From Bacillus sp. ISL-55 (lineage in GTDB: Bacteria > Bacillota > Bacilli > Bacillales > Cytobacillaceae): DNA of 64,000 nucleotides. Made by a program: the position numbers and the translations under genes. Below, one piece after another: positions 7,532 through 32,729 of this stretch. The stretch's first letter is position 1. Each line of letters begins with the position of its first letter. The notes beneath the pieces are model-generated. The model did no database searches. It had not been told where the DNA came from and was given only the letters and a program-made list of their open reading frames with translations. The stretch spans positions 1 to 64,000 of the forward strand of contig NZ_JAGGQU010000009.1 of the NCBI RefSeq assembly GCF_018613155.1, given 5' to 3'.

Positions 7532-7569
7532 CCTATCAAATGAAAGGAAAAAACAGAAAGGGTGATTCT

Positions 7570-11477: not shown

Positions 11478-11496
11478 TATACCCTGCATGGGTATA
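11478..11496 (+). promoter_or_regulatory. CsoR operator of copA
   Basis: TATACCC-TGCA(T)-GGGTATA is a near-perfect palindrome of the type recognised by Bacillus CsoR (ATACCC...GGGTAT). It lies about 60-80 bp before the copA start, in the promoter region. Confidence 0.8.
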
Positions 11497-17858: not shown

Positions 17859-18800
17859 TTACTCAACTACGATAATTCCGACCATTCCGTTCTCTCTATG
17901 TCCTGGCAGGGAACAATAAAACTCATATGAACCAGTTTCAGTAGGAGTAAAAGAAATGTTTCCCTCCTCATGTGGACTAGCATGTAAATGTAGTCCATCT
18001 CCATGTGAATCATGTGAACCATGTGATGTGATGTTTTCCTGGTCGGTATTAGGCAATGTCGGCATTTTTACTATCACGATATCATGCTCTATGGAGTCGT
18101 GATTAGTAAAGGTAAGTAAGACTTTTTTGTTTTTTGACAAATTGATTTTACTTGGAGAATAGGAAAATTTTGATGGGTTAACTTGAATAGTTATTCGGTT
18201 TAATTGCTCATCCTTGTCATCAGTAGTAATTTGGGAATGGTTCTCATGAATTGGTGATTCTTTTGAAATAACCGACTCTTTATTTAATTGGTTGCCAAAA
18301 TAAAAGTATCCTACTAAAACAATGAATGTAAAGATTGGCTTTAAAAGCCAACTGGTAAAAACTCTAGTATCTTTGGTTGCTTTTTGTTGGGAAAGAATCA
18401 AATACAGGAATAAGGTAGAGACAGTAATAGTCAAAAATATATTTAGAAGAGAAACTGCTTGGAGTCTTGAAATCATTTCACCAAGCATTGCACCCATCAT
18501 TCCCCCCATCATTCCAGCCATAGATCCCTCAATAACCGGGAGTATCCCAAATGCAAATCCTGCAGCAATACCTACCGAAATTCCAATCAATACGGAAATA
18601 AGGGAAGAAAGGAATAAATCTCCTTGATTTAAAAACCCAAAAAGAATCCCTGAGGTTATACCAATATTCATTGATATAGCCATAGATATAACCATGGATG
18701 CCATACTCTTCATCTTTGTTCTATATTGGTATGAAAGTATGATGGAAATTAGAGTCACAAGTAATAGTGTCCCTAAAACAAAATAGTGAAATTCGTTCAT
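17859..18800 (-). CDS. Membrane protein with C-terminal cupredoxin domain
   Basis: 313 residues. The N-terminal half holds about five hydrophobic segments, with a Gly/Met stretch (MAGMMGGMMGAMLGEM) between two of them. The C-terminal part is an outward-facing cupredoxin: H in SIEHDI, then FYCSLPGHRENGMVG giving the Cys, His and Met of a type 1 copper site. A His-rich loop (HGSHDSHGDGLHLHASPH) lies inside that domain and could collect copper. AGGAGGT precedes the start. It probably binds or passes copper at the outer face of the membrane. It is transcribed toward the two-component operon. The exact family name is not clear to me. Confidence 0.75.
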   Translation of the reverse strand: MNEFHYFVLGTLLLVTLISIILSYQYRTKMKSMASMVISMAISMNIGITSGILFGFLNQGDLFLSSLISVLIGISVGIAAGFAFGILPVIEGSMAGMMGGMMGAMLGEMISRLQAVSLLNIFLTITVSTLFLYLILSQQKATKDTRVFTSWLLKPIFTFIVLVGYFYFGNQLNKESVISKESPIHENHSQITTDDKDEQLNRITIQVNPSKFSYSPSKINLSKNKKVLLTFTNHDSIEHDIVIVKMPTLPNTDQENITSHGSHDSHGDGLHLHASPHEEGNISFTPTETGSYEFYCSLPGHRENGMVGIIVVE

Positions 18801-18960
18801 TCATCTTCGACCTCCTTTATTTGGTACATCATATGTCACTCCTAGACAAGCCATTCTTAAAAAAAGAATTCTATTTAAGAATAATTATTAAAAAATTCTA
18901 AATATTTAGTATTTACAAAAGGTTAGTATGGTAGTAAGATTATTTTTAATTACTCCATGA

Positions 18961-18992
18961 ATATACCGTAGCGGGGTAAAGTACATTTGAGG
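18961..18992 (+). promoter_or_regulatory. CsoR-family-like operator upstream of the first Opp operon
   Basis: ATATACCGTAGCGGGGTAAA, then GTACATTTGAG. It matches the motif at 27961-27990 base for base in most positions (ATATAC..TAG.GGGGTAA.GTA.ATT). It lies just before the ribosome site of the PIG-L-like gene. It is a likely target of the repressor encoded at 26102-26440. Confidence 0.55.
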
Positions 18993-19002
18993 AGGGAATA
19001 GA

Positions 19003-19755
19003 ATGGCAAAAGGACAGAAAATATTGTTTCTTGGGGTCTATGGAATGGAAGTTGTAGAGTGCGGAGGTGCATTGGCTAAGAACGTTCTAAATGGTGGAGA
19101 ATCATTTGCATCCATCATGCTGTGCCGGGAAACTAGCCAACCACAGGTTAGGAATGCAGCAGAAGTACTAGGAGTAAAGGATATTAAATTCCTGAATTTC
19201 CAGTATGGTACTGTTGATTTGAGCGTTGAATCCAAGAAGAAAATTGTGAAAATTATAAGGGAGGTTAAACCTGACATCATTATTACCCAAGATCCCGAAC
19301 ATTCCTTTCACGATTTGGACCCCGACCGTCGTCCGGCAATGACATTGCTTCTCGAGGCAATCGCCCTTTCGAGCAGAGATTTTGCTTTAGATGAACTTCC
19401 AGGATTAGAACCTCATCCGATTCCAACTATTTACTACATGACACCGCACCATCCTAATACTGTCGTTGACATTACAGAAGTATGGGAGAAAAAAGAACGT
19501 GCAATGGATATGCTTGATAGCCAATTAGAATTCAGTGGCATGCATTTTGATGAAATGCTTGATCCGAAAGCAGCTGAAATTCTGTATCCTGGATTCTCAA
19601 AATTAACCAACTTTCAGGAAAAAGGAAGAGCTATTCATCAAGTTCTAGATAAAGCTGTTCATGTTTATCATGGACTTGCAACACATGGACATTTTGCTCT
19701 TGCTGAAGCCTATCGAAGAGAAGGTAACTTCCATTTACAGGAATTAATTGTATAA
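19003..19755 (+). CDS. PIG-L-family protein with altered zinc site
   Basis: 250 residues with the fold landmarks of the PIG-L/LmbE deacetylases (BshB, MshB): KILFLG, then ECGGALAKNVLNGGE, VLGVKDIKFLNF, VKPDIIITQDPEH. The zinc motif, normally HPDD, reads Y13-G-M-E16, and the second zinc motif, normally HPDH, reads D106-P-D-R109. At least two metal ligands are therefore lost, and a classical N-acetyl-sugar deacetylase is unlikely. It opens an operon with a peptide/metal ABC transporter. It may be a binding protein or act on a different bond or metal. The start is supported by GAGGAGGG; the CsoR-like operator lies directly upstream. Confidence 0.7.
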   Translation: MAKGQKILFLGVYGMEVVECGGALAKNVLNGGESFASIMLCRETSQPQVRNAAEVLGVKDIKFLNFQYGTVDLSVESKKKIVKIIREVKPDIIITQDPEHSFHDLDPDRRPAMTLLLEAIALSSRDFALDELPGLEPHPIPTIYYMTPHHPNTVVDITEVWEKKERAMDMLDSQLEFSGMHFDEMLDPKAAEILYPGFSKLTNFQEKGRAIHQVLDKAVHVYHGLATHGHFALAEAYRREGNFHLQELIV

Positions 19756-19777
19756 CAATTAAAAAGGGGGCCAGAGA

Positions 19778-21574
19778 ATGAGAAAATTAATATCACTTAT
19801 AATAATTACTCTTTTTGTTTTTTCTTCAGCAGGAAACAGTTTCGCTAAATCAGAAGTAGAATCACTAAAAATCGGGATTCTTAGTGATGAAAGCACGTTA
19901 AACCCCTATACTTACCAAACCGGTTATCCAGGTCTTGACTTGGTAAGTCTGCTGTATGACACTCTCTTACAATTAGATAAAGATAATAAACCAGTCCCTT
20001 GGCTTGTTAAAGAATATAAAGTCAGTGATAACGGATTAGAGTATAGCTTTAAGCTGAACGATAATATAAAATGGCATGATGGTGAAATGCTTACATCTGA
20101 TGATGTTAAGTTTACTGTAGATTATTTCATTAAATATCCTAAATCCAGATTTACCAACCCTCTTAAAAACGTTGCCTCATTAACTGTTGAAAACGAAACA
20201 GACTTTACTATGATTCTTTCGAAACCTGATCCAAACTTTTTGATTCAACCCCTTGCAGATGTACCAATATTACCTGAGCATATTTGGTCAAAAATATCCA
20301 CGCCTGACAGTGAAACCAATGCAATAGGCAGCGGCCCATACATTTTAAGTGAACATAAGGCTGACCAATATTATAAAATGACTGCCAACAAGGAATATTT
20401 TAAAGAAGCTCCGCCTATTCAAGAAATCATATTTCCAATCATCAAAGATACTACAGCACTCTACAATGCATTGAAATCAGGGGAAATTGATGCGATCTCA
20501 TCAAATATATCTCCGGAGCTTGTTAGCCAATTTGAGTCTAACCCCTCATTAAAGATTTCACGTGGAGCAGGATTCAGTACCACATTATTCCAGCTAAATT
20601 CTGAAAAATATCCTATGACAGAAAAGCCTTTCAGACAGGCAATTGATCTTGCAATAGATAAAAAAAGTCTAGTTGATATCGTGCTTTTAGGATTTGCAGA
20701 AGTCGGCAGCCCAGGTTTTATTCACCCATCATCACCTTCTTACAACAGTGAAGTGAAAACTTCTTTCGATCCCGAAAAAGCAAAGCAAATCCTTGATGAA
20801 GCAGGTTTCAAGGATAACAATGGAGACGGTTTCAGGGAAGACCAAAAAGGTAATGAAATAAATTTCACCACACTAGTCCACTCAAACAATCCAATAAGAA
20901 TCCGTGTAGCAGAACTCATTTCTGAAGCTATAAATGAGATAGGCATTAAAAATTCTGTAAAAGCTATGGAAGACACAACCATAATTAGTTTAATGTGGCC
21001 TGACTACGATGTTAGCAAGGGAAGAAACTTTGATATGGGAGTATTCGGCTGGTCAAACACGATGCAGCTTTTCCCTGATCGGATAGTCGAGTTGTTTTAT
21101 TCAGATCCTGCAATTGGTGCTGTAAATATCGGTGGTTATAAAAACAAAGAATTTGATGCTCTGTCGGACCAACTAAGAGCGACATTTGATGAGACGGAAC
21201 GACAAGAGCTTATTAATGATCTGCAATTAATGGTAGCAGATGAAGCACCAATTATTACTCTCTATTATCAGGAAATCGTCAATGCTTATAACCCTGGAAA
21301 ATATGATGGTTTTGTTTTCCAAACAGGAAAAGGGATAATCAATAAGTTGTCATTTGTCTCTGGGGAAAGAAGTGAAGATGCTGCTGGGAATAACAGTAAT
21401 TCCGGTGGGGAAAGTAAATCTTCTGATGAAAAAACGTCTAATGACAGCAATTCAGTAAAAGAAAATAATAACGGGATTTTAATTTTTGGCGTACTTATCG
21501 TAATAGCAGCTATAGTTTTCTTCTTATTAAAAAGGAAAAAGAAGTCGAACGATAAGGATGATTTTGATTTTTAA
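19778..21574 (+). CDS. Family 5 ABC transporter substrate-binding protein, C-terminally anchored
   Basis: 598 residues. A cleavable signal peptide ends near SFAKSE, with no lipobox cysteine. The body is an SBP_bac_5 fold (LKIGILSDESTLNPY; DNIKWHDGEMLTSDDVKFT; FRQAIDLAIDKKSLVD), the group that binds peptides, nickel complexes or metallophores. After a Ser/Asn-rich spacer the protein ends in a transmembrane helix (ILIFGVLIVIAAIVFFLL) and a basic tail, so it is held by its C-terminus instead of a lipid. That is unusual for Firmicutes. It is the second gene of the first Opp operon, and a terminator between it and the permease should raise its level over the rest. Confidence 0.85.
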   Translation: MRKLISLIIITLFVFSSAGNSFAKSEVESLKIGILSDESTLNPYTYQTGYPGLDLVSLLYDTLLQLDKDNKPVPWLVKEYKVSDNGLEYSFKLNDNIKWHDGEMLTSDDVKFTVDYFIKYPKSRFTNPLKNVASLTVENETDFTMILSKPDPNFLIQPLADVPILPEHIWSKISTPDSETNAIGSGPYILSEHKADQYYKMTANKEYFKEAPPIQEIIFPIIKDTTALYNALKSGEIDAISSNISPELVSQFESNPSLKISRGAGFSTTLFQLNSEKYPMTEKPFRQAIDLAIDKKSLVDIVLLGFAEVGSPGFIHPSSPSYNSEVKTSFDPEKAKQILDEAGFKDNNGDGFREDQKGNEINFTTLVHSNNPIRIRVAELISEAINEIGIKNSVKAMEDTTIISLMWPDYDVSKGRNFDMGVFGWSNTMQLFPDRIVELFYSDPAIGAVNIGGYKNKEFDALSDQLRATFDETERQELINDLQLMVADEAPIITLYYQEIVNAYNPGKYDGFVFQTGKGIINKLSFVSGERSEDAAGNNSNSGGESKSSDEKTSNDSNSVKENNNGILIFGVLIVIAAIVFFLLKRKKKSNDKDDFDF

Positions 21575-21588
21575 GGAATAAAGGATCT

Positions 21589-21618
21589 ATCCCGTAAAAT
21601 TTTTTACGGGATTTTTTC
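21589..21618 (+). terminator. Intra-operon terminator/attenuator
   Basis: ATCCCGTAAAA/TTTTACGGGAT, 11-bp stem, tiny loop, then T run. It lies between the binding-protein and permease genes. Confidence 0.85.
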
Positions 21619-21643
21619 CTAAACTAGCAGGAGGTGCAGAATA

Positions 21644-22621
21644 ATGGGGAAATTTATGGCAGGCAAGCTTTTGCAATACACAATTGTTATCTTCTTAATG
21701 CTGACATTGAACTTTCTTCTGCCTAGGCTAATGCCAGGCAATCCCCTCGTATTTTTGGCAGGTGAAGATGTTGGATTAATGTCCAGCGCTGAGAAAGAAG
21801 CAATCTTGGAAAAGCATGGACTTAATGATTCCATATTTGAACAATACGTTACTTATATAAAAAATATTCTGACAGGAGAATTCGGTTTCTCCTATCAGCA
21901 AAAAAGACCGATTTCGGAGATTATTATGGAGCGCTTACCTTGGACAATGCTTCTAACAGGGCTCGGTCTTGTCCTCTCAACCATTCTAGGAGTAATGTTT
22001 GGAGCCATTTCAGCCTGGCGCAGAGGGACTAAAACTGATGCGAATTTATTGACAGTTTTTATGTTTCTAAGTGCAATGCCTTCCTTCTGGGTCGGTATGA
22101 TTTTAGTTTCTATTTTTTCAGCTCAATTAGGATGGCTCCCCGTTTTCGGAGCTGAAAGTGCCTGGTCGAACTATTCGGGTATGGATAGATTCATTGATAT
22201 TAGTAGACACCTTATATTACCATTAACAACTCTTATATTAATCTCAGTAACAAGCACCTTCATGATTATGAGATATTCGATGCTAAATGTTCTTGGGGAA
22301 GACTATATTATGATGGCCAAAGCAAAGGGCGTAAAAGAAAAAGTTATTAAGTATAAGCATGCCATGAGAAACGCTTTGCTTCCGGTGGCTACTGTATTTA
22401 TGCTTAGTTTAGGGTTTACCTTGGGCGGGGCAACTGTAATAGAAACGGTCTTTGCATACCCGGGTGTAGGACGATTAATGTTTGAATCAGTCCTAAGCAG
22501 AGATTACCCACTGATTCAGGCGACTTTCCTGATTATTACCTTCAGTGTTGTCATTGCCAATTTCTTGGCGGATTTACTATATCCTTTACTTGATCCGAAG
22601 GTGGGAAGCCGAAATGGGTAA
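21644..22621 (+). CDS. ABC transporter permease, DppB/NikB type
   Basis: 325 residues with about six membrane segments. The N-terminal LLQYTIVIFLMLTLNFLLPRLMPGNP and the EAA loop ending in MAKAKGVKEKVIKYKHAMRNALLPV are typical of the first permease of peptide/nickel transporters. The loop contacts the ATPases. AGGAGG precedes ATG 21644. Its end overlaps the next permease gene by eight bases. It works with the products of the next three genes and the anchored binding protein. Confidence 0.9.
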   Translation: MGKFMAGKLLQYTIVIFLMLTLNFLLPRLMPGNPLVFLAGEDVGLMSSAEKEAILEKHGLNDSIFEQYVTYIKNILTGEFGFSYQQKRPISEIIMERLPWTMLLTGLGLVLSTILGVMFGAISAWRRGTKTDANLLTVFMFLSAMPSFWVGMILVSIFSAQLGWLPVFGAESAWSNYSGMDRFIDISRHLILPLTTLILISVTSTFMIMRYSMLNVLGEDYIMMAKAKGVKEKVIKYKHAMRNALLPVATVFMLSLGFTLGGATVIETVFAYPGVGRLMFESVLSRDYPLIQATFLIITFSVVIANFLADLLYPLLDPKVGSRNG

Positions 22622-23471
22622 TAAAAAATGGAGAAAGTATTGGCATGTACTTACATCTAATAATATCGGTATAGTCGGATTAGGACTTTTGATTATATTT
22701 TTGGCGATAGCTGTTTTCGCTCCTTTACTTGCACCATTTGATCCGACTGAACGTGTGGGAACACCATTTACGAAACCTAACAGCCAATTTCTCCTGGGTA
22801 CCAATGACGTAGGACAGGATATTTTAAGTGAATTGCTGTATGGTACTAGAATTTCATTATTAATTGGTGTCCTTGCTGCCTTTATTTCGATTCTTCTTGG
22901 ATGCCTTATCGGTGTAATATCAGGGTATTACGGCGGAAAAGTAGATGCTCTTTTAATGAGATTAGTAGACCTTGTTCTTGTTATCCCATTTTTGCCTCTT
23001 ATGATCTTATTGGCAGCCTTTATTGGTCCAAGTTTTTGGAATATCATTTTGGTTATAAGCTTAATTTCTTGGGCGAGTCCAGCAAGGGTTATAAGATCAC
23101 AGGTATTAACGCTAAAAACAAAAGGGTATGTCGAAGCCGCCAAATCAATCGGCACAAATATTAAGGTCATATTAGGCCGGCATATTTTGCCTGGTGTTAT
23201 CCCAATTGCACTTTCCCAATTTGTATTAGCAGCAAGTCATTCTATTTTAATTGAAGCCTCTCTAAGCTTTTTGGGTCTAGGAGACCCTTTTACTAAGAGC
23301 TGGGGAACGATTTTATATTATGCCCAGGCAAGGGGAGCGTTCTTGACGGATGCATGGATCTGGTGGATACTTCCTCCTGGCTTACTCATCACCACATTGG
23401 TAATAGGATTTGCTTTTACTGGCTATTCATTGGAAGAAGTTATGAATCCGCGACTGAGAAGGGGGCGTTAG
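22614..23471 (+). CDS. ABC transporter permease, DppC/NikC type
   Basis: 285 residues from ATG 22614, the start that follows AAGGTGGG inside the end of the previous gene; a longer frame upstream has no ribosome site. It has an N-terminal OppC-like region (LTSNNIGIVGLGLLIIFLAIAVFAPLL), the LGTNDVGQDILSELLYGTRISL signature, and an EAA loop (YVEAAKSIGTNIKVILGRHILP). It forms the transmembrane heterodimer with the preceding permease. It is translationally coupled to it. Confidence 0.9.
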   Translation: MGNKKWRKYWHVLTSNNIGIVGLGLLIIFLAIAVFAPLLAPFDPTERVGTPFTKPNSQFLLGTNDVGQDILSELLYGTRISLLIGVLAAFISILLGCLIGVISGYYGGKVDALLMRLVDLVLVIPFLPLMILLAAFIGPSFWNIILVISLISWASPARVIRSQVLTLKTKGYVEAAKSIGTNIKVILGRHILPGVIPIALSQFVLAASHSILIEASLSFLGLGDPFTKSWGTILYYAQARGAFLTDAWIWWILPPGLLITTLVIGFAFTGYSLEEVMNPRLRRGR

Positions 23472-23474
23472 CAT

Positions 23475-24443
23475 ATGACTGCTGTATTAACTGTTGAGAA
23501 CCTCTCGACTTTCTTTAAAACCGAAAAGGGAATTGCCCGTGCTGTAGAAAACGTTTCATTCTCTGTTGAAGAGGGAGAAATGCTTGGACTGATTGGAGAG
23601 TCGGGATGCGGGAAAACGACCGTTGCCCAATCGATTCTAAGATTAATAGAGTTTCCCGGAAAAGTGGTGGCTGGAAGTGTTCATTTAAATGGTAGGGATT
23701 TGCTTAAAGCCTCCGATTCTGAACTAGATTCTTTAAGATGGAAGGATCTTTCTGTCATACCACAAAGTGCGATGAATGCACTAAATCCCGTTTATACAAT
23801 AGGCGATCAAATTATGGAAGCCATTTTGCTCCATGAAAGAGTAAGCAAAAGAGAAGCACTGGCACGGACGAAGACCCTACTTGAGCTTGTCGGTATCGAT
23901 GGTGACCGATGGAAAAGCTATCCCCACGAATTCAGCGGAGGGATGAAGCAGCGCGTTGCCATTGCCATGTCTCTTGCTTGTTCTCCCAAACTGGTAATTT
24001 CCGACGAATCAACGACAGGACTAGATGTATTAACCCAGGCACAGGTGATAGCATTAATTAAAAACCTTCAGAGAAAGATGGATTTATCAGTAATACTAAT
24101 TTCACATGATTTGCCGATGGTTACTGCTATTTGCGACAAAATTGCAATCATGTATGCAGGGAAAATTGTTGAGCTTGCATCAACAGAGGATATATTGAAT
24201 GATACAAGACATCCTTATTCAAAGGCTTTATTACAAGCGACTCCTGACCTGTCCGATCCTGATCGGGAAGTGATTTCGATACCAGGCAGTGTCCCTAATC
24301 TAGTAAACATCCCACAATGTTGCAGGTTTCATACTCGATGTGCGTTTGCCTTTGACCGCTGCAGAAAAGAAACACCTGAGTTCAGGGAAGTAAAAAATGG
24401 TCACTTTTCCGCATGCTTTCTTGAGGAGGAGGAAAATGGATAA
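23475..24443 (+). CDS. ABC transporter ATPase, DppD/NikD type
   Basis: 322 residues with Walker A GESGCGKTT, Q-loop, signature FSGGMKQRVAIAM, Walker B (LVISDESTTGLDV, with Ser in place of the usual Pro after E) and H-loop ISHD. The C-terminal oligopeptide extension contains three cysteines (CCRFHTRCAF...C) as in Opp/Dpp ATPases, where they may hold an Fe-S cluster. It overlaps the next ATPase gene by eight bases. Two different ATPases are expected to pair in this first operon. Confidence 0.92.
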   Translation: MTAVLTVENLSTFFKTEKGIARAVENVSFSVEEGEMLGLIGESGCGKTTVAQSILRLIEFPGKVVAGSVHLNGRDLLKASDSELDSLRWKDLSVIPQSAMNALNPVYTIGDQIMEAILLHERVSKREALARTKTLLELVGIDGDRWKSYPHEFSGGMKQRVAIAMSLACSPKLVISDESTTGLDVLTQAQVIALIKNLQRKMDLSVILISHDLPMVTAICDKIAIMYAGKIVELASTEDILNDTRHPYSKALLQATPDLSDPDREVISIPGSVPNLVNIPQCCRFHTRCAFAFDRCRKETPEFREVKNGHFSACFLEEEENG

Positions 24444-25440
24444 TTCAATTTTACTGAAAGTAAGAGACTTGAAGAAAACGTTTGTGAAGAAAACTGGATC
24501 GATTTTAAACCGGAAATTGCAAAATGTTTACGCCGTCCATAACGTTAGCTTTGAGATTAAAAAAGGGGAAATTCTAGGGATCATCGGGGAAAGCGGCTGT
24601 GGAAAAACTACAACAGCGCGAATGGTGATGCGCCTGATGAAGGAAACCAGCGGGGAAATCCTTTTTGAAGGAAGAGATTTATGTAAATTAACTGATTCAG
24701 AGACAAACAAGCTGAGAAGCAAAATGCAAATGATTTTTCAGGATCCATATGATACTCTCAATCCTGGTATGACAATAATGGACATTTTAATGGAACCAAT
24801 CAATGCCCACGAAAAACACCTGCCATATGATGAGAAAGTCCGAAGGGTCAAAGAGGCTATTGAATCAATTGAGCTGAGGCCGGCTGAAGACTATATGGAG
24901 AGGTTTCCACATCAGCTTAGTGGCGGGCAGAGGCAAAGGATTGCTATAGCAAGAGCTGTGATTCTGGAACCACTGTTTATTGCAGCTGATGAACCTACTT
25001 CTATGCTTGATGTTTCTGTCCGAGCAGGTATTTTAAACCTCCTTCTCGAACTTAAGAAGAAAATGGGCTTGACCATGATGCTGATTACACATGACCTATC
25101 GACAGCAAGTTATATGTGTGACCGCATTGCTGTCATGTACCAGGGTAAAATCATCGAGGTCGGGCCCACCAAGAAAATCATTCAATCGCCTTCACATCCT
25201 TACACAAAGGCACTAGTTTCGGTAGTGAAAGATCTAAATTACTTTATCCAAAATCGAGAAAAGTTAATTCTAGATGGTGAAGTGGATGCAACCGAAGAGA
25301 CAGCAGGATGCCCATTTGTAAAAAGATGTCCATACCAGGAGGATATTTGTAACAGTAAAATGCCTAAACAAGAATCTCTAGGCGCAGGCCATGCAGTATC
25401 TTGTCACTGCCATAGTAATTTACTTGAAAAAACTTCTTAG
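24436..25440 (+). CDS. ABC transporter ATPase, DppF/NikE type
   Basis: 334 residues from ATG 24436, which has GAGGAGGAGG directly upstream; a longer frame lacks this. Walker A is GESGCGKTT, the signature LSGGQRQRIAIARA, the Walker B segment FIAADEPTSMLDV, the H-loop ITHD. A Cys-containing C-terminal extension (GCPFVKRCPYQEDIC) is present. With the preceding ATPase it completes a five-component transporter. The second Opp operon has no equivalent of this gene and might share it. Confidence 0.92.
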   Translation: MDNSILLKVRDLKKTFVKKTGSILNRKLQNVYAVHNVSFEIKKGEILGIIGESGCGKTTTARMVMRLMKETSGEILFEGRDLCKLTDSETNKLRSKMQMIFQDPYDTLNPGMTIMDILMEPINAHEKHLPYDEKVRRVKEAIESIELRPAEDYMERFPHQLSGGQRQRIAIARAVILEPLFIAADEPTSMLDVSVRAGILNLLLELKKKMGLTMMLITHDLSTASYMCDRIAVMYQGKIIEVGPTKKIIQSPSHPYTKALVSVVKDLNYFIQNREKLILDGEVDATEETAGCPFVKRCPYQEDICNSKMPKQESLGAGHAVSCHCHSNLLEKTS

Positions 25441-25456
25441 GAAAGGGAGTTTTAAA

Positions 25457-26089
25457 TTGAACAACGAAAAGAAAATAAAAGTCGCTGTTAATGGTGGCAT
25501 TGATTTCGGGTCCAAACTGACTGCTAATCAGCTTCGAATACTTGCAAAATATATGGAGGACAGCCAGGAGCTAGAGCTTACAACCTTCCAGCAGCTTTAT
25601 ATTGATATTCCTGACAGTAAAAAGGATGAAATTATTACGGATTTTGAGTCGGTCGGGTTACAATGCTACCCAGTCGGCAATTTTGTAAAGAGCCTTAGAA
25701 CCTGCAACTTTTGTAAAGGTGCAGAGGAAGAGGGAATGCCTGTCGCAATCGAACTTAATAAGAGAATTGCCGGAAAACCTGTTCCGTTTACCCTAAAACC
25801 AGCATACACCGGCTGTCCTGTTGGCTGTGGAGAGCCTTTGGTTAATGATATTGGAGTTATGAAAATAAATGGGAATCAATATAATCTTTATATTGGCGGG
25901 AAAACAAAAGGAGAGGATGCCGAGGCAGGAAGCTTATTTAAGGAAAATCTAAATCCTGAAGAACTTTATACTACAGTCGAAGAAATTATTAGGGTATATG
26001 GGGAAAAAGGAAAGAAACGAGAGCCTTTCCATAAATTTTTAAAGAGATTCGGAAAGGAAGAGCTAATTGAAAATATAAGTCAGGTATAA
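25457..26089 (+). CDS. Half-size nitrite/sulfite reductase-like iron-sulfur protein
   Basis: About 210 residues from TTG 25457, preferred because AAAGGGAG lies 7-8 bases upstream and the longer frame runs into the ATPase gene. The N-terminal part resembles the ferredoxin-like half domain of nitrite/sulfite reductases (KLTANQLRILAKYMED). Then come C83-x2-C86 and, after a spacer, GC120PVGC124GEP, the Cx3C of the 4Fe-4S/siroheme site. Normal family members have Cx5C in place of Cx2C, and are two to three times longer. It may bind a 4Fe-4S cluster, with or without a tetrapyrrole, and could reduce or insert a cofactor. Function unknown. Confidence 0.6.
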   Translation: MNNEKKIKVAVNGGIDFGSKLTANQLRILAKYMEDSQELELTTFQQLYIDIPDSKKDEIITDFESVGLQCYPVGNFVKSLRTCNFCKGAEEEGMPVAIELNKRIAGKPVPFTLKPAYTGCPVGCGEPLVNDIGVMKINGNQYNLYIGGKTKGEDAEAGSLFKENLNPEELYTTVEEIIRVYGEKGKKREPFHKFLKRFGKEELIENISQV

Positions 26090-26101
26090 GGGGGAATGGG
26101 C

Positions 26102-26440
26102 ATGGGTGTAGAGGCGGCTAATGAACAAGTATTGCCACCCACTGGTTGCTCTACAAATCATAGAAAGAGCCATCATTCAGAAAAAATAAAAAAGAACCTT
26201 GATTCAAGGCTAAATCGGATTGAAGGACAAATTCGCGGGGTTAAAAGATTAATTGAAAATGATACCTACTGTGACGATGTGATAACTCAATTATCCGCCA
26301 TCCAATCTGCTTTAAACAGCGTTGCAAGTCTTCTTCTTGAAGGACATTTAAAAAGCTGCGTCCTAGAAAGGATAAATGAAGGAGATACTGAAGTCATTGA
26401 TGAGGTCCTAGTTACCTTCCAGAGATTGCTGAAAAAGTAA
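26102..26440 (+). CDS. Second CsoR-family metal-sensing repressor
   Basis: 112 residues from ATG 26102; the ATG at 26096 is too close to the GGGGG ribosome site. It is a close paralogue of the CsoR at 10866 (KSHHS.K, RLNRIEGQIRGVK, DTYCDDVITQ, LLEGHLKSCV). Metal-ligand positions are C57, H82 and C86, with H25 exactly 32 residues before C57, as in InrS and RcnR. It sits inside the first Opp operon and most likely controls the operator-like motifs at 18961 and 27961. Signal could be Cu(I), Ni(II) or another metal; the residues do not decide. Confidence 0.85.
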   Translation: MGVEAANEQVLPPTGCSTNHRKSHHSEKIKKNLDSRLNRIEGQIRGVKRLIENDTYCDDVITQLSAIQSALNSVASLLLEGHLKSCVLERINEGDTEVIDEVLVTFQRLLKK

Positions 26441-26469
26441 GAGAGAAAGAAAACCGGGAGGGATTTTCG

Positions 26470-27834
26470 GTGGCTCAACAAGAGACGGCGGGTATACAAA
26501 GTACGAAACAAAAGGTTAGCACCATCTTAGCTTTAGCTATTCCAGCTATGGTTGAGAATACCTTACAAATGGTGGTAGGTTTTGTGGATACCCTGTTTGT
26601 TGCCAGACTTGGTTTAAACGAAGTGACAGCTGTTGGGATAGCGAATGCAGTTTTAGCCGTTTATATTGCTATTTTTATGGCAATAGGGGTGGGAACTTCT
26701 TCGCTAATTGCCAGGAGCATCGGATCAGGAGACATCGAAAAAGCAAAATCGATTGCCAGGCAATCCACTTTTATTTCTATTTTGGCGGGAATGATCTTCG
26801 GTATCATTTCCGTCTTTTTTAGTGAGCCGTTGCTTAAAATGATGGGCGCAGAATCAGATGTTTTAAGAGATGGGTCCATATATTTACAGATTGTTGGAAT
26901 TCCATCTGTCTTTATTTCATTGATGTTCAATTTTGGTAGCATATTAAGGGCTGCTGGGGATACTAAAACACCTATGAAAGTAAGCTGGTGGATCAACTTA
27001 ATTCATATTGGTCTAGATTATGTCCTGATTTTTGGCATATTTAAGTTGGATGGATTTGGTCTAGCTGGAGCCGCGTGGGCCACTGTCATTGTAAGGCTTT
27101 TGGGGTCAGCTGCGTTGTATCATCATATAAAAAAATCTCCGGTTTCTTTTTCTTTCTTTGGCGAATCTTCCAAAGGAGATTTATTTGCTATCTTAACATT
27201 ATCTGCACCTGCAGCAATTGAGAGACTAATTATGCGTCTTGGCCAGGTGGTTTATTTTGGCCTGATCGTGAAAATAGGGGCAGAAACGTATGCTGCCCAC
27301 ACAATTGCAGGGAATATTGAAACATTTTCATATATGCCGGGTTACGGTCTTGCAATAGCAGCCACTACCCTTGTTGGCCAAAGGATCGGTGCTAAACAGT
27401 ATAGGGAGGCATATGAATTTGGTTTTTTAACTACGGGGTTAGCAATTGGATTTATGTCATTAATTGGCTTGGTGTTGTTCTTTTTATCTCCATGGTTTGC
27501 TTCCTGGTTTACTACAGACCTACATGCTAGAAGCATGGTTGTAACCGCGCTAAAAATTGATGCTTTTGCACAGCCTGCATTGGCAGTGGGTTTAGTTTTA
27601 GCAGGTGCACTTCAGGGGGCCGGCGACACAAAAAGTCCGATGTACAGCACCGCACTTGGCATGTGGGTGATTAGGATAATCGGAGTTTATATTTTTGGAA
27701 TACATTTCGGCATGGGGATAGCGGGAATATGGATTTCAATCGCGATTGATTTATATACAAGGGGAGCTTTTTTGTTTTATCAATTTAAAAAACACTTTAA
27801 AAAAATAGAAGAAAAAAACTTAGGGATTAACTAA
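26470..27834 (+). CDS. MATE-family exporter
   Basis: 454 residues with about twelve membrane helices in two similar halves (ILALAIPAMVENTLQMVVGFVDTLFVARLG and, in the second half, ILTLSAPAAIERLIMRLGQVVYFGLI). The start is GTG 26470 after GGGAGGG. MATE proteins export organic molecules against a Na+ or H+ gradient. This one lies in an operon with a peptide/metal-complex importer and a CsoR-like repressor, so it may export a metal-binding small molecule or a toxic by-product. It is clearly related to the exporter at 47159-48592. Confidence 0.85.
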   Translation: MAQQETAGIQSTKQKVSTILALAIPAMVENTLQMVVGFVDTLFVARLGLNEVTAVGIANAVLAVYIAIFMAIGVGTSSLIARSIGSGDIEKAKSIARQSTFISILAGMIFGIISVFFSEPLLKMMGAESDVLRDGSIYLQIVGIPSVFISLMFNFGSILRAAGDTKTPMKVSWWINLIHIGLDYVLIFGIFKLDGFGLAGAAWATVIVRLLGSAALYHHIKKSPVSFSFFGESSKGDLFAILTLSAPAAIERLIMRLGQVVYFGLIVKIGAETYAAHTIAGNIETFSYMPGYGLAIAATTLVGQRIGAKQYREAYEFGFLTTGLAIGFMSLIGLVLFFLSPWFASWFTTDLHARSMVVTALKIDAFAQPALAVGLVLAGALQGAGDTKSPMYSTALGMWVIRIIGVYIFGIHFGMGIAGIWISIAIDLYTRGAFLFYQFKKHFKKIEEKNLGIN

Positions 27835-27960
27835 ATCAATTTTTATAAGCTTATTTATCGCTGTATGTATTAACCTACAATTCTAATTTTAAAAATTCTA
27901 TTTATATTTTCTTGACCATCCTTTAATGGTTATTAAAAGTTATTTTAATGATGCACCCAC

Positions 27961-27992
27961 ATATACTATAGAGGGGTAATGTATATTGAGAA
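27961..27992 (+). promoter_or_regulatory. CsoR-family-like operator upstream of the second Opp operon
   Basis: ATATACTATAGAGGGGTAAT, then GTATATTGAG. Same motif and same distance from flanking AT-rich sequence as at 18961. Suggests joint control of both transporter operons. Confidence 0.55.
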
Positions 27993-28077
27993 CAGTAGGA
28001 GGTTTTGCTTATAGATATCAAGAGGTTTACTTGGATTGATGAGGTTTCGGGTCTAGAACATAATAGGGGGAAACACA

Positions 28078-29733
28078 ATGCTTAATTATGGGAAACGCTT
28101 ATCATTTTTCAGCTTACTTTGTGTACTGATATTAGTATTTAGTGCCTGTAATAATAGTCAAGTTAATACTCCTGCAAATAAAGAAAAGAATGAAGAAAAA
28201 ACAAGAAGTTCTAATAAAGAGCAAGTTATCACAGTCAATGCGTTAAGTGAACCGCCTAGTCTTGAACCAGCACTGATTGATAACCAGACTGCAGGGGATA
28301 TTTCAAATCAATTATTCGAGGGTTTGGTCCGATTGGACAAAGAAGGAAACATAGTTCCTGGTGTCGCAGAAAAGTGGGACATTTCTGATGATGGAACTGT
28401 TTATACTTTCTATTTTAATAAGAATGCTAAATGGTCAAATGGTGACCCTGTGACTGCTAAGGATTTTGTCTATTCGTGGGAGAAGGTTTTACGTCCAGAA
28501 GTAGCTTCACCTCTTGGCAGTAACTTGTTCTTTATTAAAAATGGAGCAGCATACAATGAAGGTTCATTAAAGGATCAGGCACAGCTGGGAGTTAAGGCTA
28601 TTGATGAGTATACACTGGAGGTTACTTTAGAAAAACCTACTTCCTTTTTCTTAGGTTTAACTGCTTTCTTTACATTATTACCGATCCATGAAAAAACGGA
28701 TAAGGCAAATCCAGAGTGGGCTTCTGAAGCTGAAACCTTTGTTTCTAACGGACCTTTTAAAATTGAGAGTTGGAAACACGGCCAAGAATTAATTATGGTT
28801 CCAAATGAAAATTATTGGGGCAATGATGTAGTTAAGCTTGAAAAGTTAAAGTGGGTAATGGTGAATGAACAAAATACTGAATATGCTATGTACCAATCGA
28901 ACGAGCTCGATTTTTCTGCCAATATCCCAAATTCAATAAGAAGTAAATTAATCGCTTCAGGTGAAGCAAAAACAGCGCCAAGCGCAAGTTTAGCTTATAT
29001 AAGATTTAATCATGAGGATCGAATTTTTAAAAATGAAAAAATCCGTAAAGCATTAGGTCTTGCCCTTGATAGAAAACTTTTGGTCGAAAAAGTGACACAG
29101 GGAGGAGAAGTTCCCGCTCTTGGTTTAATACCATTAGGATTGAGTAGTGGTGCAGGAGAATTCAGGGAATTAGCTGGAGACTCCTTGTTTAAGGATAATG
29201 ATTTAGACACAGCAAAACAACTTCTGAAAGAAGGACTCGAAGAACTGGGACTTTCTACATTGCCAAAAATTAATCTGCTTTTTTATACAGACGATACTTA
29301 CAATAAACTTTCTCAAGCAATGCAGGAAATGTGGAAGAAAAACTTAGGAATTGATACAGAGCTCCAAACGATGGAACGTAAGGTATTTGTTCAAAATGTT
29401 CAAGCCGGTGAGTACCAATTAGCTTTGTACAGTACTGGCGCAGACTATGATGATGCAAGCAATTTAATGGGACAATTCATGAGTGGGGATGTCTATAACT
29501 ATAGCAACATTTCTATTCCTGATTACGATCAATTAATGGAAAAAGCAGAAGCGGAATTGAACCTGGAGAAGCGAGCGGGGTATTTGGTCGAAGCTGAAAA
29601 GGTTCTAATAGACCAAATGGCAATTTCCCCACTTTATTACCGTACAAAAGTTTACTTGCAAAAGGACTATATCGAAGGAGTCTATCAGTATACAATTCAG
29701 GCAATTGATTTCCGGGAGGCGAGTGTTAAGTAG
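28078..29733 (+). CDS. Family 5 ABC transporter substrate-binding lipoprotein (OppA type)
   Basis: 551 residues. The lipobox VFSAC predicts a lipoprotein. The SBP_bac_5 body is typical of peptide-binding OppA (LSEPPSLEPALIDNQTAGDI, QLFEGLVRLDKEGNIVPGVAEKW, KWSNGDPVTAKDFVYSWEKVL, RKALGLALDRKLLVEKV). It is clearly different from the C-terminally anchored binding protein of the first operon. AGGGGG lies before the ATG. A terminator follows, before the permease genes, as in the first operon. The ligand may be an oligopeptide or a metal-peptide complex; the shared operator hints at metal. Confidence 0.88.
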   Translation: MLNYGKRLSFFSLLCVLILVFSACNNSQVNTPANKEKNEEKTRSSNKEQVITVNALSEPPSLEPALIDNQTAGDISNQLFEGLVRLDKEGNIVPGVAEKWDISDDGTVYTFYFNKNAKWSNGDPVTAKDFVYSWEKVLRPEVASPLGSNLFFIKNGAAYNEGSLKDQAQLGVKAIDEYTLEVTLEKPTSFFLGLTAFFTLLPIHEKTDKANPEWASEAETFVSNGPFKIESWKHGQELIMVPNENYWGNDVVKLEKLKWVMVNEQNTEYAMYQSNELDFSANIPNSIRSKLIASGEAKTAPSASLAYIRFNHEDRIFKNEKIRKALGLALDRKLLVEKVTQGGEVPALGLIPLGLSSGAGEFRELAGDSLFKDNDLDTAKQLLKEGLEELGLSTLPKINLLFYTDDTYNKLSQAMQEMWKKNLGIDTELQTMERKVFVQNVQAGEYQLALYSTGADYDDASNLMGQFMSGDVYNYSNISIPDYDQLMEKAEAELNLEKRAGYLVEAEKVLIDQMAISPLYYRTKVYLQKDYIEGVYQYTIQAIDFREASVK

Positions 29734-29766
29734 TAAAAATGGTGGCGCGCTAAGCGGCTAGAATGC

Positions 29767-29800
29767 TGAAAGAGTGTACAATGAGTACACTTTTTCAGTT
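29767..29800 (+). terminator. Intra-operon terminator/attenuator
   Basis: CTGAAAGAGTGTAC, five-base loop, GTACACTTTTTCAG. Same position relative to its operon as the hairpin at 21589-21618. Confidence 0.8.
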
Positions 29801-29832
29801 GTTTTTGCTTAAAATCATAAAGGAGGGGGAAT

Positions 29833-30762
29833 ATGCGGCAATTTATTACCAGGAGAATTATTAGTGTTATCTTAACTTTATTTGTCATTATTTCGCTTAC
29901 CTTTTTATTGATGTACGCAATACCCGGTGATCCTTTTACAAGTGAAAATCGTATTCCAGAGCAGGTAGTTGAAAACTTAAAAGAGCATTATGGACTTAAT
30001 GATCCCTTGTTTATACAATATTTTAAATATCTAAAGGGAGCATTATTGATGGACTTTGGTCCTTCAATCAAATGGGATAACCAGACAGTTAACCAATTAA
30101 TTGCTAACGGATTTCCTGTTTCGGCCAGGATAGGTATTCAAGCCATTCTCATAGCTGCATTCTTTGGAATCGTTTTAGGTATTCTCGCAGCTTTTCGTCA
30201 CAATAGTGCAATTGACTATTTTTCGATGATTATTGCCATACTTGGCCTTTCCGTCCCCAGCTTCATTTTTGCTACAATATTAATCAATTTTTTTGCTATA
30301 AAGCTGCAATGGTTCCCTGTCGCAACATGGGGTACATGGAAACACTCCGTTTTGCCAAGCATTGCTCTTGCGGTGACACCGATGGCCTATATTGCACGAC
30401 TCACTAGATCAAGTATTTTAGAAGTACTTTCGATGGATTATATTCAAACTGCCATAGCTAAAGGAGTGACTGGTTTCAGATTAATTTTTAGACATGTACT
30501 TCGTAATGCAATGATTCCAGTTGTAACAATACTTGGTCCCATTACAGCTACAGTATTGACTGGAAGCTTTGTCATAGAACAAATCTTCGGTATTCCAGGC
30601 TTGGGGAAATATTTTGTTGAGGGCATAACTGATAGAGATTATCCATTAATTTTGGGAACGACTGTTTTTTATAGTGCTATATTAATATTCTTTATTATAT
30701 TAGTCGACCTTGCATACGTCCTGATCGATCCAAGAATAAAACTTATCAAAAGGAGGGGATAG
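29833..30762 (+). CDS. ABC transporter permease, OppB type
   Basis: 309 residues, about six membrane helices. The N-terminal RRIISVILTLFVIISLTFLLM and AIPGDPF, the later LKGALLMDFGPSIKW, and the loop AKGVTGFRLIFRHVLRNAMIPV are typical of OppB. AAGGAGGGGG precedes the ATG. It runs directly into the next permease gene (stop immediately followed by ATG). It is the first membrane subunit of the second Opp transporter. Confidence 0.92.
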   Translation: MRQFITRRIISVILTLFVIISLTFLLMYAIPGDPFTSENRIPEQVVENLKEHYGLNDPLFIQYFKYLKGALLMDFGPSIKWDNQTVNQLIANGFPVSARIGIQAILIAAFFGIVLGILAAFRHNSAIDYFSMIIAILGLSVPSFIFATILINFFAIKLQWFPVATWGTWKHSVLPSIALAVTPMAYIARLTRSSILEVLSMDYIQTAIAKGVTGFRLIFRHVLRNAMIPVVTILGPITATVLTGSFVIEQIFGIPGLGKYFVEGITDRDYPLILGTTVFYSAILIFFIILVDLAYVLIDPRIKLIKRRG

Positions 30763-31683
30763 ATGATGCAGCAAGTGCCAGACGATCTTTTTGTTCTAAA
30801 GAAAAAAAACAAAGAAGAAAAGGCCGATAGTAAACCTAGTGAATCATTTTGGATAGATGCAATAAGCATTCTGAGACAAAACAAGCTTGCTATGACTGGA
30901 CTTGCCATTAATATTGGTTTGATTGTAATGGCAATTATAGGTCCAATGCTGGTTCCCTATTCGTATTCAGACCAAAATCTGCTAAATTCCAATCTCCCTC
31001 CATCATTTGACTATTGGTTTGGAACGGATGATTTAGGTAGAGATTTATTTTCCAGGACCTGGGTAGGAGCAAGGATTTCCCTTTTTATTGGTATAACAGC
31101 AGTAGTTTTGGATTTAATAATCGGAATTATATGGGGAGGAATCGCAGCGTATAAAGGCGGAAAAACTGATGAAGTGATGATGAGAATCGTAGATATACTT
31201 TATGGACTGCCTCATTTGCTGGTGACAATTTTATTGATGGTCGTATTAAAGCCTGGATTACTCACTATTATAATTGCCATGGCTGCAACGGGATGGATTG
31301 GAATGGCGCGTCTAGTTCGCGGTGAAATACTGAGATTGAAGGAATCTGAATTTGTATTGGCATCCCAAGTATTAGGAGGGAGTTTTTTTCGGGTCTTGTT
31401 TAAGCACCTTATTCCAAATGCTATGGGCCCTATAATAGTGAGCATGACATTATCTGTTCCTGGTGCAATTTTTGCGGAAGCCACTTTAAGCTTTCTTGGA
31501 CTAGGTGTTCCTGTACCGCTTGCGAGCTGGGGAACGATGACATCAGAAGGTCTCGTCACTTTATTAACAGGTGAAATATGGAGGTTGTTTTTTCCCGCAT
31601 TATTTATTTCTTTAACGATGTTTTCATTTAATGTATTGGGTGATGGTCTGAGGGATGCACTGGATCCGAAATTCAGAAAATAA
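30763..31683 (+). CDS. ABC transporter permease, OppC type
   Basis: 306 residues. A hydrophilic N-terminus of about 30 residues precedes an OppC-like core (FWIDAISILRQNKLAMTGL, FGTDDLGRDLFSRTWVGARI, EAA loop EFVLASQVLGGSFFRVLFKHLIPN). It begins at the base after the preceding stop, with AGGAGGGG as ribosome site. It forms the transmembrane dimer with the OppB-type subunit. A MATE/repressor gene pair separates this operon from the first. Confidence 0.92.
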   Translation: MMQQVPDDLFVLKKKNKEEKADSKPSESFWIDAISILRQNKLAMTGLAINIGLIVMAIIGPMLVPYSYSDQNLLNSNLPPSFDYWFGTDDLGRDLFSRTWVGARISLFIGITAVVLDLIIGIIWGGIAAYKGGKTDEVMMRIVDILYGLPHLLVTILLMVVLKPGLLTIIIAMAATGWIGMARLVRGEILRLKESEFVLASQVLGGSFFRVLFKHLIPNAMGPIIVSMTLSVPGAIFAEATLSFLGLGVPVPLASWGTMTSEGLVTLLTGEIWRLFFPALFISLTMFSFNVLGDGLRDALDPKFRK

Positions 31684-31712
31684 CTCTTTTACTCAATGAA
31701 AGGGTGATAAAT

Positions 31713-32729
31713 GTGAAAAAATTACTAGAAGTTAATGACCTGCAAGTTCATTTTCATTCAAAAAAACAGAATATCTACGCTGTCCGTGGGGTTTCCTTTC
31801 ATGTGAACAAGGGGGAAGTCCTCGCAATTGTCGGAGAATCTGGATCGGGTAAATCAGTTACTGCAAAAAGTATTATGAAACTTCTTCCTGAGAAAACATG
31901 TTCCATCCCATCAGGGTCCATTTTATTTAATGGGGAAGAAATCACAACAATGAAGAAAAAACAACTTTCCAAAATCCGGGGGGCAAAGATCGGTATGGTA
32001 TTCCAGGATCCCATGACTTCCTTAAACCCGACAATGAAGGTGGGTGACCAAATTGCTGAGGGGCTAATCGTTCATAAAGGCTATAGTAAAAAGTTAGCTC
32101 ATGAAAAGGCAATTGAAATCATTAGTCTAGTTGGAATCCCGGATCCTATATATTGTTGTACAACCTATCCTCATCAACTAAGTGGAGGAATGAGGCAGCG
32201 AGTTGCCATTGCAATGGCTTTGATTTGCGAACCTGATCTGTTAATTGCTGACGAGCCAACAACAGCTCTTGACGTAACCATCCAAGCACAGATTTTGGAT
32301 TTATTAAAAGACCTGCAGGAGAAAATGGGTATGGCGATCATTCTTATTACGCATGATTTAGGTGTGGTTGCAAGGTTTTCAGATAGAGTGAATATAATGT
32401 ATGCCGGTAAAATAGTCGAAAGTGGAACGAAAAACGAAATTTTTTATAATCCAAAACACCCCTATACGATTGGATTGCTAGAATCAGTTCCTCATCTTGA
32501 TTTAGAAAAAAACCAACAATTAACCGTGATTGAAGGGACTCCCCCAGACTTGCATGATCCTCCAAAAGGTTGCGCTTTTACTTCGCGATGTCAGTTTGCA
32601 ATGGAGGTATGTGATTTGTATCAACCTAATAAAACCATCCTATCAAGTACACATCATTCTGTTTGTTGGTTGATGGATCAAAGAGCGCCAAAAGTAGATG
32701 ACATTCAATATAACGATTTTCATCAGTGA
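31713..32729 (+). CDS. ABC transporter ATPase, OppD type
   Basis: 338 residues from GTG 31713, chosen because AAAGGGTG is 7-8 bases upstream. Walker A GESGSGKSVT, signature LSGGMRQRVAIAMA, Walker B LLIADEPTTALDVT, H-loop ITHD, and the Cys-bearing C-terminal extension of OppD. No OppF partner follows; after the stop there is only non-coding sequence with a copA remnant. The transporter may therefore use two copies of this ATPase, or borrow the ATPase of the first operon. Confidence 0.9.
   Translation: MKKLLEVNDLQVHFHSKKQNIYAVRGVSFHVNKGEVLAIVGESGSGKSVTAKSIMKLLPEKTCSIPSGSILFNGEEITTMKKKQLSKIRGAKIGMVFQDPMTSLNPTMKVGDQIAEGLIVHKGYSKKLAHEKAIEIISLVGIPDPIYCCTTYPHQLSGGMRQRVAIAMALICEPDLLIADEPTTALDVTIQAQILDLLKDLQEKMGMAIILITHDLGVVARFSDRVNIMYAGKIVESGTKNEIFYNPKHPYTIGLLESVPHLDLEKNQQLTVIEGTPPDLHDPPKGCAFTSRCQFAMEVCDLYQPNKTILSSTHHSVCWLMDQRAPKVDDIQYNDFHQ

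Follow-up and report, generated by a model that had tools for sequence, protein, structure and literature searches.

Textbook responses of bacteria to copper push the metal out, oxidise it or store it. Among described systems the CsoR-copZ-copA regulon stands close to the locus reported here, sharing with it the repressor family, the fingerprint residues of the repressor, operators built as a TAC-N9-GTA dyad with a G-tract, and the presence of copZ and copA in or near the gene run. The locus lies in a stretch of 64,000 nucleotides of Bacillus sp. ISL-55 (contig NZ_JAGGQU010000009.1, positions 1 to 64,000), here called the window, and it differs from that regulon in that predicted CsoR-type operators also precede two ABC-importer operons with genes for a PIG-L-fold protein, a half protein resembling sulfite reductases (SiR-like) and a MATE exporter. 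Copper control of these operons through CsoR is, judging by sequence, very likely, and copper probably switches on the uptake of some small molecule by way of the shared operator.

The remaining parts also have known counterparts. Importers of the Opp, Dpp, Nik and Cnt classes have the same gene order—solute-binding protein (SBP), B, C, D, F—and a binding protein of family 5, whereas here there is a CsoR-type operator, a C-terminally anchored SBP1, a companion PIG-L protein and, in operon 2, a single ATPase. PIG-L/LmbE deacetylases (BshB, MshB, diacetylchitobiose deacetylase) hold zinc through the first His and last Asp of HxDD and the second His of HPDH; the window's protein matches them in the middle of the fold but has a VYGME-type sequence for HxDD and DPDR for HPDH, and its zinc ligands are lost. 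Siroheme sulfite reductases follow the cluster-ligand rule CX5C-Xn-CX3C. Compared with siroheme-4Fe-4S sulfite and nitrite reductases, the SiR-like protein scores above the PF01077 cut-off and keeps the second pair (CX3C), but it is a single half, has CX2C as its first pair and is linked to copper genes. The NikR-linked TonB/FecCD chelate uptake of Ferrimonas includes a PIG-L protein of the same subfamily, with an unrelated type of transporter and a nickel regulator. The component families are thus known; no open-access paper was found with the combination of CsoR, PIG-L, copper and an ABC transporter, and neither the gene set nor the two altered proteins were found among the matches listed from titles and the starts of abstracts in the open-access literature.

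Predicted CsoR-type operators and copper context

The site rule for CsoR in the excerpted text of PMC3902906 is a TAC-N9-GTA dyad around a G-tract, and such a dyad is present at four sites of the window (Table 1). Motif 1, in the leader of operon 1, and motif 2, before operon 2, contain TACCGTAGCGGGGTA and TACTATAGAGGGGTA, both with a G-tract; the csoR1 leader carries TACAGGGGTATAGTA and the copA leader TACCCTGCATGGGTA. A first-pass annotation of this DNA had reported near-identical motifs before both operons, and a search at three or fewer mismatches, with a pattern derived from motifs 1 and 2 themselves, returned these 2 matches and 0 in 100 shuffles. Throughout the genome (4,519,545 bases) TANNGGGGTANNGTA matches only at 10824, 18969 and 27969, before csoR1, the PIG-L gene and the SBP2 gene, and the reversed pattern gives 0 matches; as the pattern was drawn from motif 1, motif 2 and the csoR1 leader, the three matches speak for rarity, not independence. 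A related pattern with one mismatch was unspecific (3 matches against 8 in the control), and the short half TANNGGGGTA, also with one mismatch, barely exceeded chance within the window (44 against 35.7).

Independent support for the operators comes from conservation in relatives. Across 620,496 bases of Bacillales sequence (31 sequences, 29 loci) the core TACNNTANNGGGGTA has 39 matches, against 1 when reversed; these counts are not independent, because several of the sequences are close relatives. Twenty-four of these matches precede PIG-L, 4 SBP2, 7 csoR and 1 copZ; 1 lies within a cupredoxin gene, and 2 are unassigned, one of them (locus L033) falling in an SBP2 leader that is truncated where the sequence ends. 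The strict core is present in 24 of 29 PIG-L leaders, and an operator in 27 of 29 when two looser forms are admitted (the misses are L072 and L094). Together, the genome-wide matches and the conserved Bacillales leaders uphold the earlier suggestion that both operons have one type of operator, predicted to be of the CsoR type.

A promoter-like sequence, TTTACA-17-TANNAT in its conserved form, lies 45-52 nucleotides upstream of the operator in 26 of the 27 operator-bearing PIG-L leaders. Because promoter-like sites are not generally enriched in the region (35 against 43.9 expected), it is this conservation on which the promoter call is made. The operator core before PIG-L begins 16-23 nucleotides past the -10 box, whereas in the csoR leaders of the same loci it falls, by eye, between the promoter hexamers. 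A position inside the transcribed leader suggests that the repressor would block transcription just past its start.

Two CsoR-family repressors, csoR1 and csoR2, are encoded in the window. The latter has C59, H84 and C88, together with Y58 preceding the first Cys, E103 and H27. The set Y-C-H-C, with a Glu 15-16 residues past the last Cys, recurs in 29 of 29 distinct csoR-like proteins, taken from the surveyed PIG-L loci at E 1e-20 or better against csoR1 or csoR2. CstR-type persulfide sensing was set aside, the Cys-His-Cys set being complete. The excerpted text of PMC4235346 assigns the Tyr (A) and Glu (B) to the second shell of Cu(I) CsoR, both being absent in RcnR, and states that the W-X-Y-Z residues do not tell copper from nickel.

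Copper genes accompany the module at most of the Bacillales loci. At the 32 Bacillales PIG-L loci, copZ was found at 26, copA at 22 and csoR (at least 50% identity) at 28, and any one of the three lies within 15 kb of PIG-L at 29. Two of the three misses (L063 and L068) reach a contig end 2.3 and 6.1 kb past the start of PIG-L, and the third (L094) is a true miss. A cupredoxin-domain protein is encoded at 31 of the 32. On a Cytobacillus firmus plasmid the row runs plastocyanin, PIG-L, SBP, permeases and ATPases, then a reductase (annotated 'nitrite and sulphite reductase 4Fe-4S domain protein'), a metal-sensitive regulator, CopZ and a P-type ATPase. Metal control, as first proposed, can be narrowed mainly by this context (copZ, copA, cupredoxin, oxidases) and partly by the second-shell residues, and copper is most likely the metal sensed.

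PIG-L proteins of this type are patchily distributed: 21 of 193 genomes of the family, 7 of 299 from the order and 3 of 348 from the phylum have one, the window's own genome being included in each count. They were also found in 10 of 111 genomes in the phylum of a Trueperaceae genome, in 2 of 113 and 1 of 4 from two further classes, and in 1 of 321 from the class of a Shewanella genome, the single match being that genome; a scan of named genomes gave 26 loci. SBP1 is near PIG-L at all 32 Bacillales loci and at 10 of 16 others, the remaining six matching another importer gene. SBP2 occurs at 6 of the 32, namely in Fictibacillus and in five members of the window's genus; in a further congener (L033) the sequence ends before SBP2 is reached, and the named copy of that locus (L058) has it. 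One strand of Fictibacillus carries, in order, MATE, SiR-like, PIG-L, SBP1, B, C, D, F, copZ, SBP2, B, C, D and csoR, a run that ties both importers, copZ and a csoR together as one unit; a csoR2-type copy adjoins copA about 1.2 kb further on, and looser TAC-N9-GTA dyads precede the SiR-like gene (L072:9326) and copA. The first-pass proposal was made dependent on co-occurrence of its genes in other genomes, and in that part it survives, since the set recurs elsewhere in Bacillales.

Two loci call for separate mention. The importer beside PIG-L is broken in Brevibacillus porteri (L074, 10684-11853), with a shortened SBP1 and no permease match; PIG-L, SiR-like and csoR are still open there, and the copZ match spans 95%. 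'Chryseobacterium sp. ISL-80' (L057) and 'Pseudomonas sp. ISL-84' (L070) have Bacillales-type loci with PIG-L 97% and 85% identical, and these names are probably wrong.

The PIG-L-fold and SiR-like proteins

The PIG-L-fold protein passes the PF02585 cut-off (34 against 28.2 bits) over residues 48-101 only, matches PDB 3wl4, of PIG-L/LmbE type, significantly in the middle of the fold, and gives an AlphaFold2 model with a mean pLDDT of 81.9. HxDD or HPDH is found in 0 of 43 distinct copies, which contradicts a zinc-dependent PIG-L deacetylase. An alignment set ten members, the window protein and nine others 50-88% identical to it, beside three canonical paralogues encoded in one and the same genome, which show HPDD or HADD plus HPDH or HHDH; the ten come from Bacillales, other Bacillota, Deinococcota and Gammaproteobacteria, and none retains a zinc ligand. 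Invariant among them are Y13, G14, M15, E16, E19, C20, G21, G22 and D104-R110, and in the larger set DLDPDR is present in 43 of 43 copies and YGxExVExGG in all 42 whose start is covered. Met15 and Cys20 were tempting as invariant copper ligands, a pattern that held for the ten members and fails in the larger set.

Across genera PIG-L is 84-88% identical; the permeases reach 83-93% and SBP1 about 65%. A value near that of the permeases and above that of SBP1 is not that of a decaying gene, and with the conserved motifs of its own it indicates that PIG-L is under selection. The nearest NCBIfam models, BshB1 (49 of 182 bits) and BshB2 (41 of 195), are far under cut-off, and with the zinc motifs gone the protein does not belong among the BshB enzymes. 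PIG-L is present in six plasmid records, and five of them call its product a deacetylase or de-N-acetylase, probably an incorrect label for this family, which spans three phyla and has lost the zinc motifs in all 43 copies examined.

Over all the loci the gene stands beside importers of two unrelated kinds. In Ferrimonas it is the last gene in a run that also holds Peripla_BP_2, FecCD, ABC ATPase and TonB receptor genes, divergent from nikR (114.8 bits, passing the NF002815 cut-off of 83 and below that of TIGR02793), and its product is 55% identical to the window's. Three other Bacillota (L090, L125 and L091) have it within an Opp/Nik-type run free of copper genes, and at Trueperaceae and Meiothermus-type loci its upstream neighbours are SBP, B and C, with no ATPases. 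From the importer common to the loci examined (broken in Brevibacillus) we infer that PIG-L acts on the imported compound, a metal complex; this chelate-handling step is put forward tentatively. A wider proposal, that the cross-phylum family consists of cytoplasmic dechelating proteins for copper and nickel complexes delivered by unrelated importers, and in Bacillales placed under CsoR, is speculative and on balance unlikely.

Shewanella (L078:5320-10738) has the same run of TonB/FecCD and PIG-L genes beside genes that by eye resemble those of hydrogenases; this run and that of Ferrimonas (L081:4845-10735) possibly serve nickel-chelate uptake.

The SiR-like protein, about 210 amino acids long, matches siroheme sulfite reductases over their C-terminal half. 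Relative to E. coli SiR it has Val at the first Cys of the CX5C pair, and a new Cys gives CX2C; CX2C-Xn-CX3C, in place of the usual pattern, is found in 41 of 41 distinct copies of at least 150 amino acids. The first-pass description as a half sulfite-reductase-like protein stands as regards the PF01077 family match and not as regards the cysteine pattern. Its gene is present in 78 of 193 family genomes, comprising 21 of 21 with PIG-L and 57 of 172 without (Fisher P = 9e-10, phylogeny ignored), and lies near PIG-L at 26 of the 32 Bacillales loci. Nine copies from PIG-L-free genomes (L166-L174), each in 14-16 kb of sequence, were inspected: 6 lie near csoR-copZ-copA, 2 near a multicopper oxidase and a YncE-like gene, and 1 (L168) near no copper gene. 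These neighbours link the SiR-like gene to copper in its own right. Specificity of the gene to the PIG-L module is ruled out by the 57 PIG-L-free genomes that have it.

Layout of the operons and the surrounding island

The features are listed in Table 1. The genes named by the first-pass annotation were all located; its placement of the PIG-L, SiR-like, CsoR and MATE genes between two operons is corrected here, all four being members of operon 1. Operon 2 stands as a second transporter operon, with its composition revised to four genes and a single ATPase, no second ATPase gene being present downstream before 33788. The Opp/Nik part set (SBP, two permeases, two ATPases) is thus complete in operon 1 and 4 of 5 in operon 2. 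This single-ATPase form of importer 2 is seen both in the window and in Fictibacillus (L072/L130), where csoR comes directly after it, and it may share ATPase F of importer 1.

Table 1. Coordinates of predicted features in the window.
Feature	Position	Strand	Remarks
Motif 1, predicted CsoR-type operator, operon 1 leader	18961..18987	+	core 18964-18978
Motif 2, predicted CsoR-type operator before operon 2	27961..27987	+	core 27964-27978
Predicted CsoR-type operator before csoR1-copZ	10824..10838	+	TAC-N9-GTA, G-tract
Predicted CsoR-type operator before copA	11480..11494	+	palindromic, TACCCTGCATGGGTA
Promoter-like TTTACA-17-TAAGAT	18912..18940	+	conserved form TTTACA-17-TANNAT
Operon 1	19003-27834	+	nine genes: PIG-L, SBP1, two permeases, two ATPases, SiR-like, csoR2, MATE; intergenic gaps at most 69 bp
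PIG-L-fold protein without zinc motifs	19003..19755	+	PF02585, 34 bits
SBP1, family 5, C-terminal membrane anchor	19778..21574	+	PF00496, 280 bits
Hairpin after SBP1	21589..21612	+	possible attenuator
Permease B, ABC importer 1	21644..22621	+	
Permease C, ABC importer 1	22605..23471	+	
ATPase D, ABC importer 1	23475..24443	+	
ATPase F, ABC importer 1	24436..25440	+	
SiR-like half protein	25454..26089	+	CX2C-X33-CX3C; PF01077, 60 bits; in-frame upstream start possible
csoR2, CsoR-family repressor	26096..26440	+	114 amino acids; PF02583, 99 bits
MATE exporter	26470..27834	+	TIGR00797, 287 bits
Operon 2	28078-32729	+	four genes: SBP2, two permeases, one ATPase
SBP2, oligopeptide-type binding protein	28078..29733	+	nearest solved DppE, OppA
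Hairpin after SBP2	29765..29799	+	possible attenuator
Permease B, importer 2	29833..30762	+	Opp3B-like
Permease C, importer 2	30763..31683	+	Opp3C-like
ATPase D, importer 2	31704..32729	+	no ATPase F downstream
csoR1, CsoR-family repressor	10866..11207	+	113 amino acids; best model RicR, score under RicR cut-off
copZ-like copper chaperone	11222..11428	+	homologue annotated copZ on C. firmus plasmid
copA-like copper P-type ATPase	11556..13985	+	by eye; homologue annotated heavy metal P-type ATPase
Cupredoxin-domain membrane protein	17859..18800	-	PF00127, 37.7 bits; divergent from operon 1

The membrane anchor of SBP1 is a PF00746 match (22 bits) at 562-589. Among solved structures SBP1 is nearest to AppA (174 bits), HbpA (148) and NikA (134), and SBP2 to DppE (382) and OppA (365); neither passes a curated equivalog cut-off. 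SBP2 retains the Asp aligned with that of DppE and OppA, which in DppA/OppA-type proteins anchors peptide N-termini. At this place SBP1 has Thr in the HbpA alignment and a gap in that with AppA, which decides nothing. Each SBP gene is followed by a hairpin with a T-run, a kind of site of which the region holds 22 where 11 would be expected; hairpins in this position are common where a binding protein is made in excess.

The window as a whole looks like a copper-resistance island, with csoR1, copZ, copA, multicopper oxidases, and proteins of DUF326, YdhK and cupredoxin-domain types. Profiles identify one of the multicopper oxidases, the DUF326 protein and a DUF1541 (YdhK) protein; the other oxidase, together with a further MATE and a further YdhK-like protein, was recognised by eye. 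The csoR1-copZ-copA set, both oxidases, the DUF326 protein and the cupredoxin-domain protein had gone unmentioned in the first-pass annotation. The Cys-rich DUF326 protein and the YdhK/DUF1541-type proteins (7540-7896, 14235-14849 and 48929-49807) recur around the module in several other genomes. Tyrosine recombinase genes (PF00589) at 1474-2484 (minus strand) and 51793-52878 (plus strand), about 49 kb apart, bracket the island, and with relatives of the module on Cytobacillus plasmids they suggest that the region may be mobile. Shortly after operon 2 come an OLD-like ATPase gene (PF13175; 33788-35770) and a TIR-domain gene (PF13676; 36082-36774), which resemble defence genes and lie in a stretch where GC shifts between 32 and 43%; the OLD-like ATPase is found in genome G074, with no match within the stretches taken from G080, G082 and G083.

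Readings of the importer operons

The observations from which any reading has to start are the operators, the gene order and its conservation, the copper context in Bacillales, and the loss of catalytic motifs. We propose, as the leading but still tentative reading, that the two operons are an import arm of the CsoR copper regulon, in which copper de-represses the uptake of a small ligand that PIG-L handles inside the cell. Here repressor binding, copper induction, the substrate and the chemistry of both altered proteins are what we infer. Cu(I) would load CsoR (csoR1, csoR2 or both), and the repressor would be released from the csoR1-copZ leader and from those of operons 1 and 2, a step suggested by the operators and their conservation. 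Importer 1 would take up a small ligand, probably a metal chelate and most likely a metal-binding compound arriving as its copper complex. The PIG-L-fold protein, with its YGxExVExGG and DLDPDR motifs, would bind or dismantle the compound in the cytoplasm; copper would be passed to CopZ and CopA, and MATE would expel the ligand or a product of it. Importer 2 would bring in peptides and may borrow ATPase F of operon 1, and the SiR-like protein would serve the copper response in a redox or copper-binding role.

Several points weigh against this import arm. Taking up a copper-loaded compound amid copper excess is counter-intuitive. In the 42 copies covering the motif Met15 is replaced by Leu in 2, and Cys20 by Ala in 3 and Val in 2. 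SBP1 lies under the curated NCBIfam cut-offs (CntA, 132 of 800 bits; NikA, 174 of 393) and also far below those for Opp, and its nearest solved relative, AppA, is an oligopeptide binder. The W-position His (X-32) is present in 28 of 29 csoR-like proteins, and the W-X-Y-Z set is no guide to the metal. At the Bacillales locus L094 PIG-L and the importer are present with neither operator nor copper genes, and in Fictibacillus the terminal csoR belongs to a subgroup other than csoR2 and the operator core is absent from the region of the run. Finally, copper-type genes are near PIG-L at only 4 of the 16 loci outside Bacillales, some of the 16 being on short contigs. These four (L076, L100, L121 and L122, all in the Trueperaceae and Meiothermus-type set) have P-type ATPase or csoR-like matches at 33-40% identity, so that the pairing of PIG-L with an importer is broader than its link to copper. 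The variable Met15 and Cys20 and the closeness of SBP1 to AppA led us to mark the import arm and the wider dechelation proposal down slightly and the main rival up.

This rival, less probable and rather unlikely overall, is the copper-induced uptake of a nutrient that buffers copper: peptides or thiols brought in by importers 1 and 2 would bind Cu(I) in the cytoplasm or feed the synthesis of cysteine and bacillithiol, the SiR-like protein would supply reduced sulfur, and MATE would expel the loaded ligand. The resemblance of SBP2 to DppE and OppA, its conserved Asp, and the nearness of SBP1 to a peptide binder fit such a role, as does the fact that the bacillithiol models BshB1 and BshB2, though far under cut-off, are the nearest to PIG-L. 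There is a partial precedent in Streptococcus pyogenes, where imported glutathione buffers excess copper, its uptake and synthesis not being copper-regulated according to the excerpted text of PMC7733945. Without zinc motifs, however, PIG-L is no BshB enzyme, and its association with TonB/FecCD genes and nikR, and elsewhere with importers free of copper genes, does not suggest a thiol.

It is also improbable that CsoR control of an ordinary peptide or nickel importer is accidental and that the PIG-L relative is a dead passenger. Both importers belong to common classes, and the patchy spread in the family, the six plasmid records and the broken importer of Brevibacillus are what accessory cargo would show; but PIG-L is among the best-conserved proteins of the module, has its own motifs in 42-43 copies, and is preceded by the operator in nearly all leaders. 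Marginally weaker still is a nickel or cobalt system in which a CsoR paralogue senses nickel, the importers serve a nickel chelate, and the copper neighbours reflect chance in the assembly of the island. The nickel sensor InrS has the W-position His (excerpted text of PMC4235346), NikR and hydrogenase-like genes (the latter by eye) adjoin the Ferrimonas and Shewanella relatives, and the importer is of Opp/Nik class. Against these stand csoR and then copZ downstream of PIG-L in 11 of 21 Bacillales loci of one set, the same type of operator in the csoR1-copZ leader, and the Tyr and Glu that RcnR lacks.

Least credible is the first-pass reading, import, export and modification of a self-made metallophore or tetrapyrrole: there is a MATE gene in operon 1, the importers are of family 5 and the SiR family binds siroheme, but a search confined to the two operons found no biosynthetic gene among their 13, the score for the staphylopine binding-protein model falls well short of its cut-off, MATE was not found near PIG-L at 10 of 32 Bacillales loci (some truncated), and a tetrapyrrole as the compound handled is not supported.

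An importer controlled by a copper repressor would, if confirmed, add an arm to what is known of copper handling in bacteria and would offer a direct route to the ligand. If the proposed dechelation by PIG-L is also true, Bacillales would meet excess copper not only by pumping it out but also by importing and dismantling its chelates.

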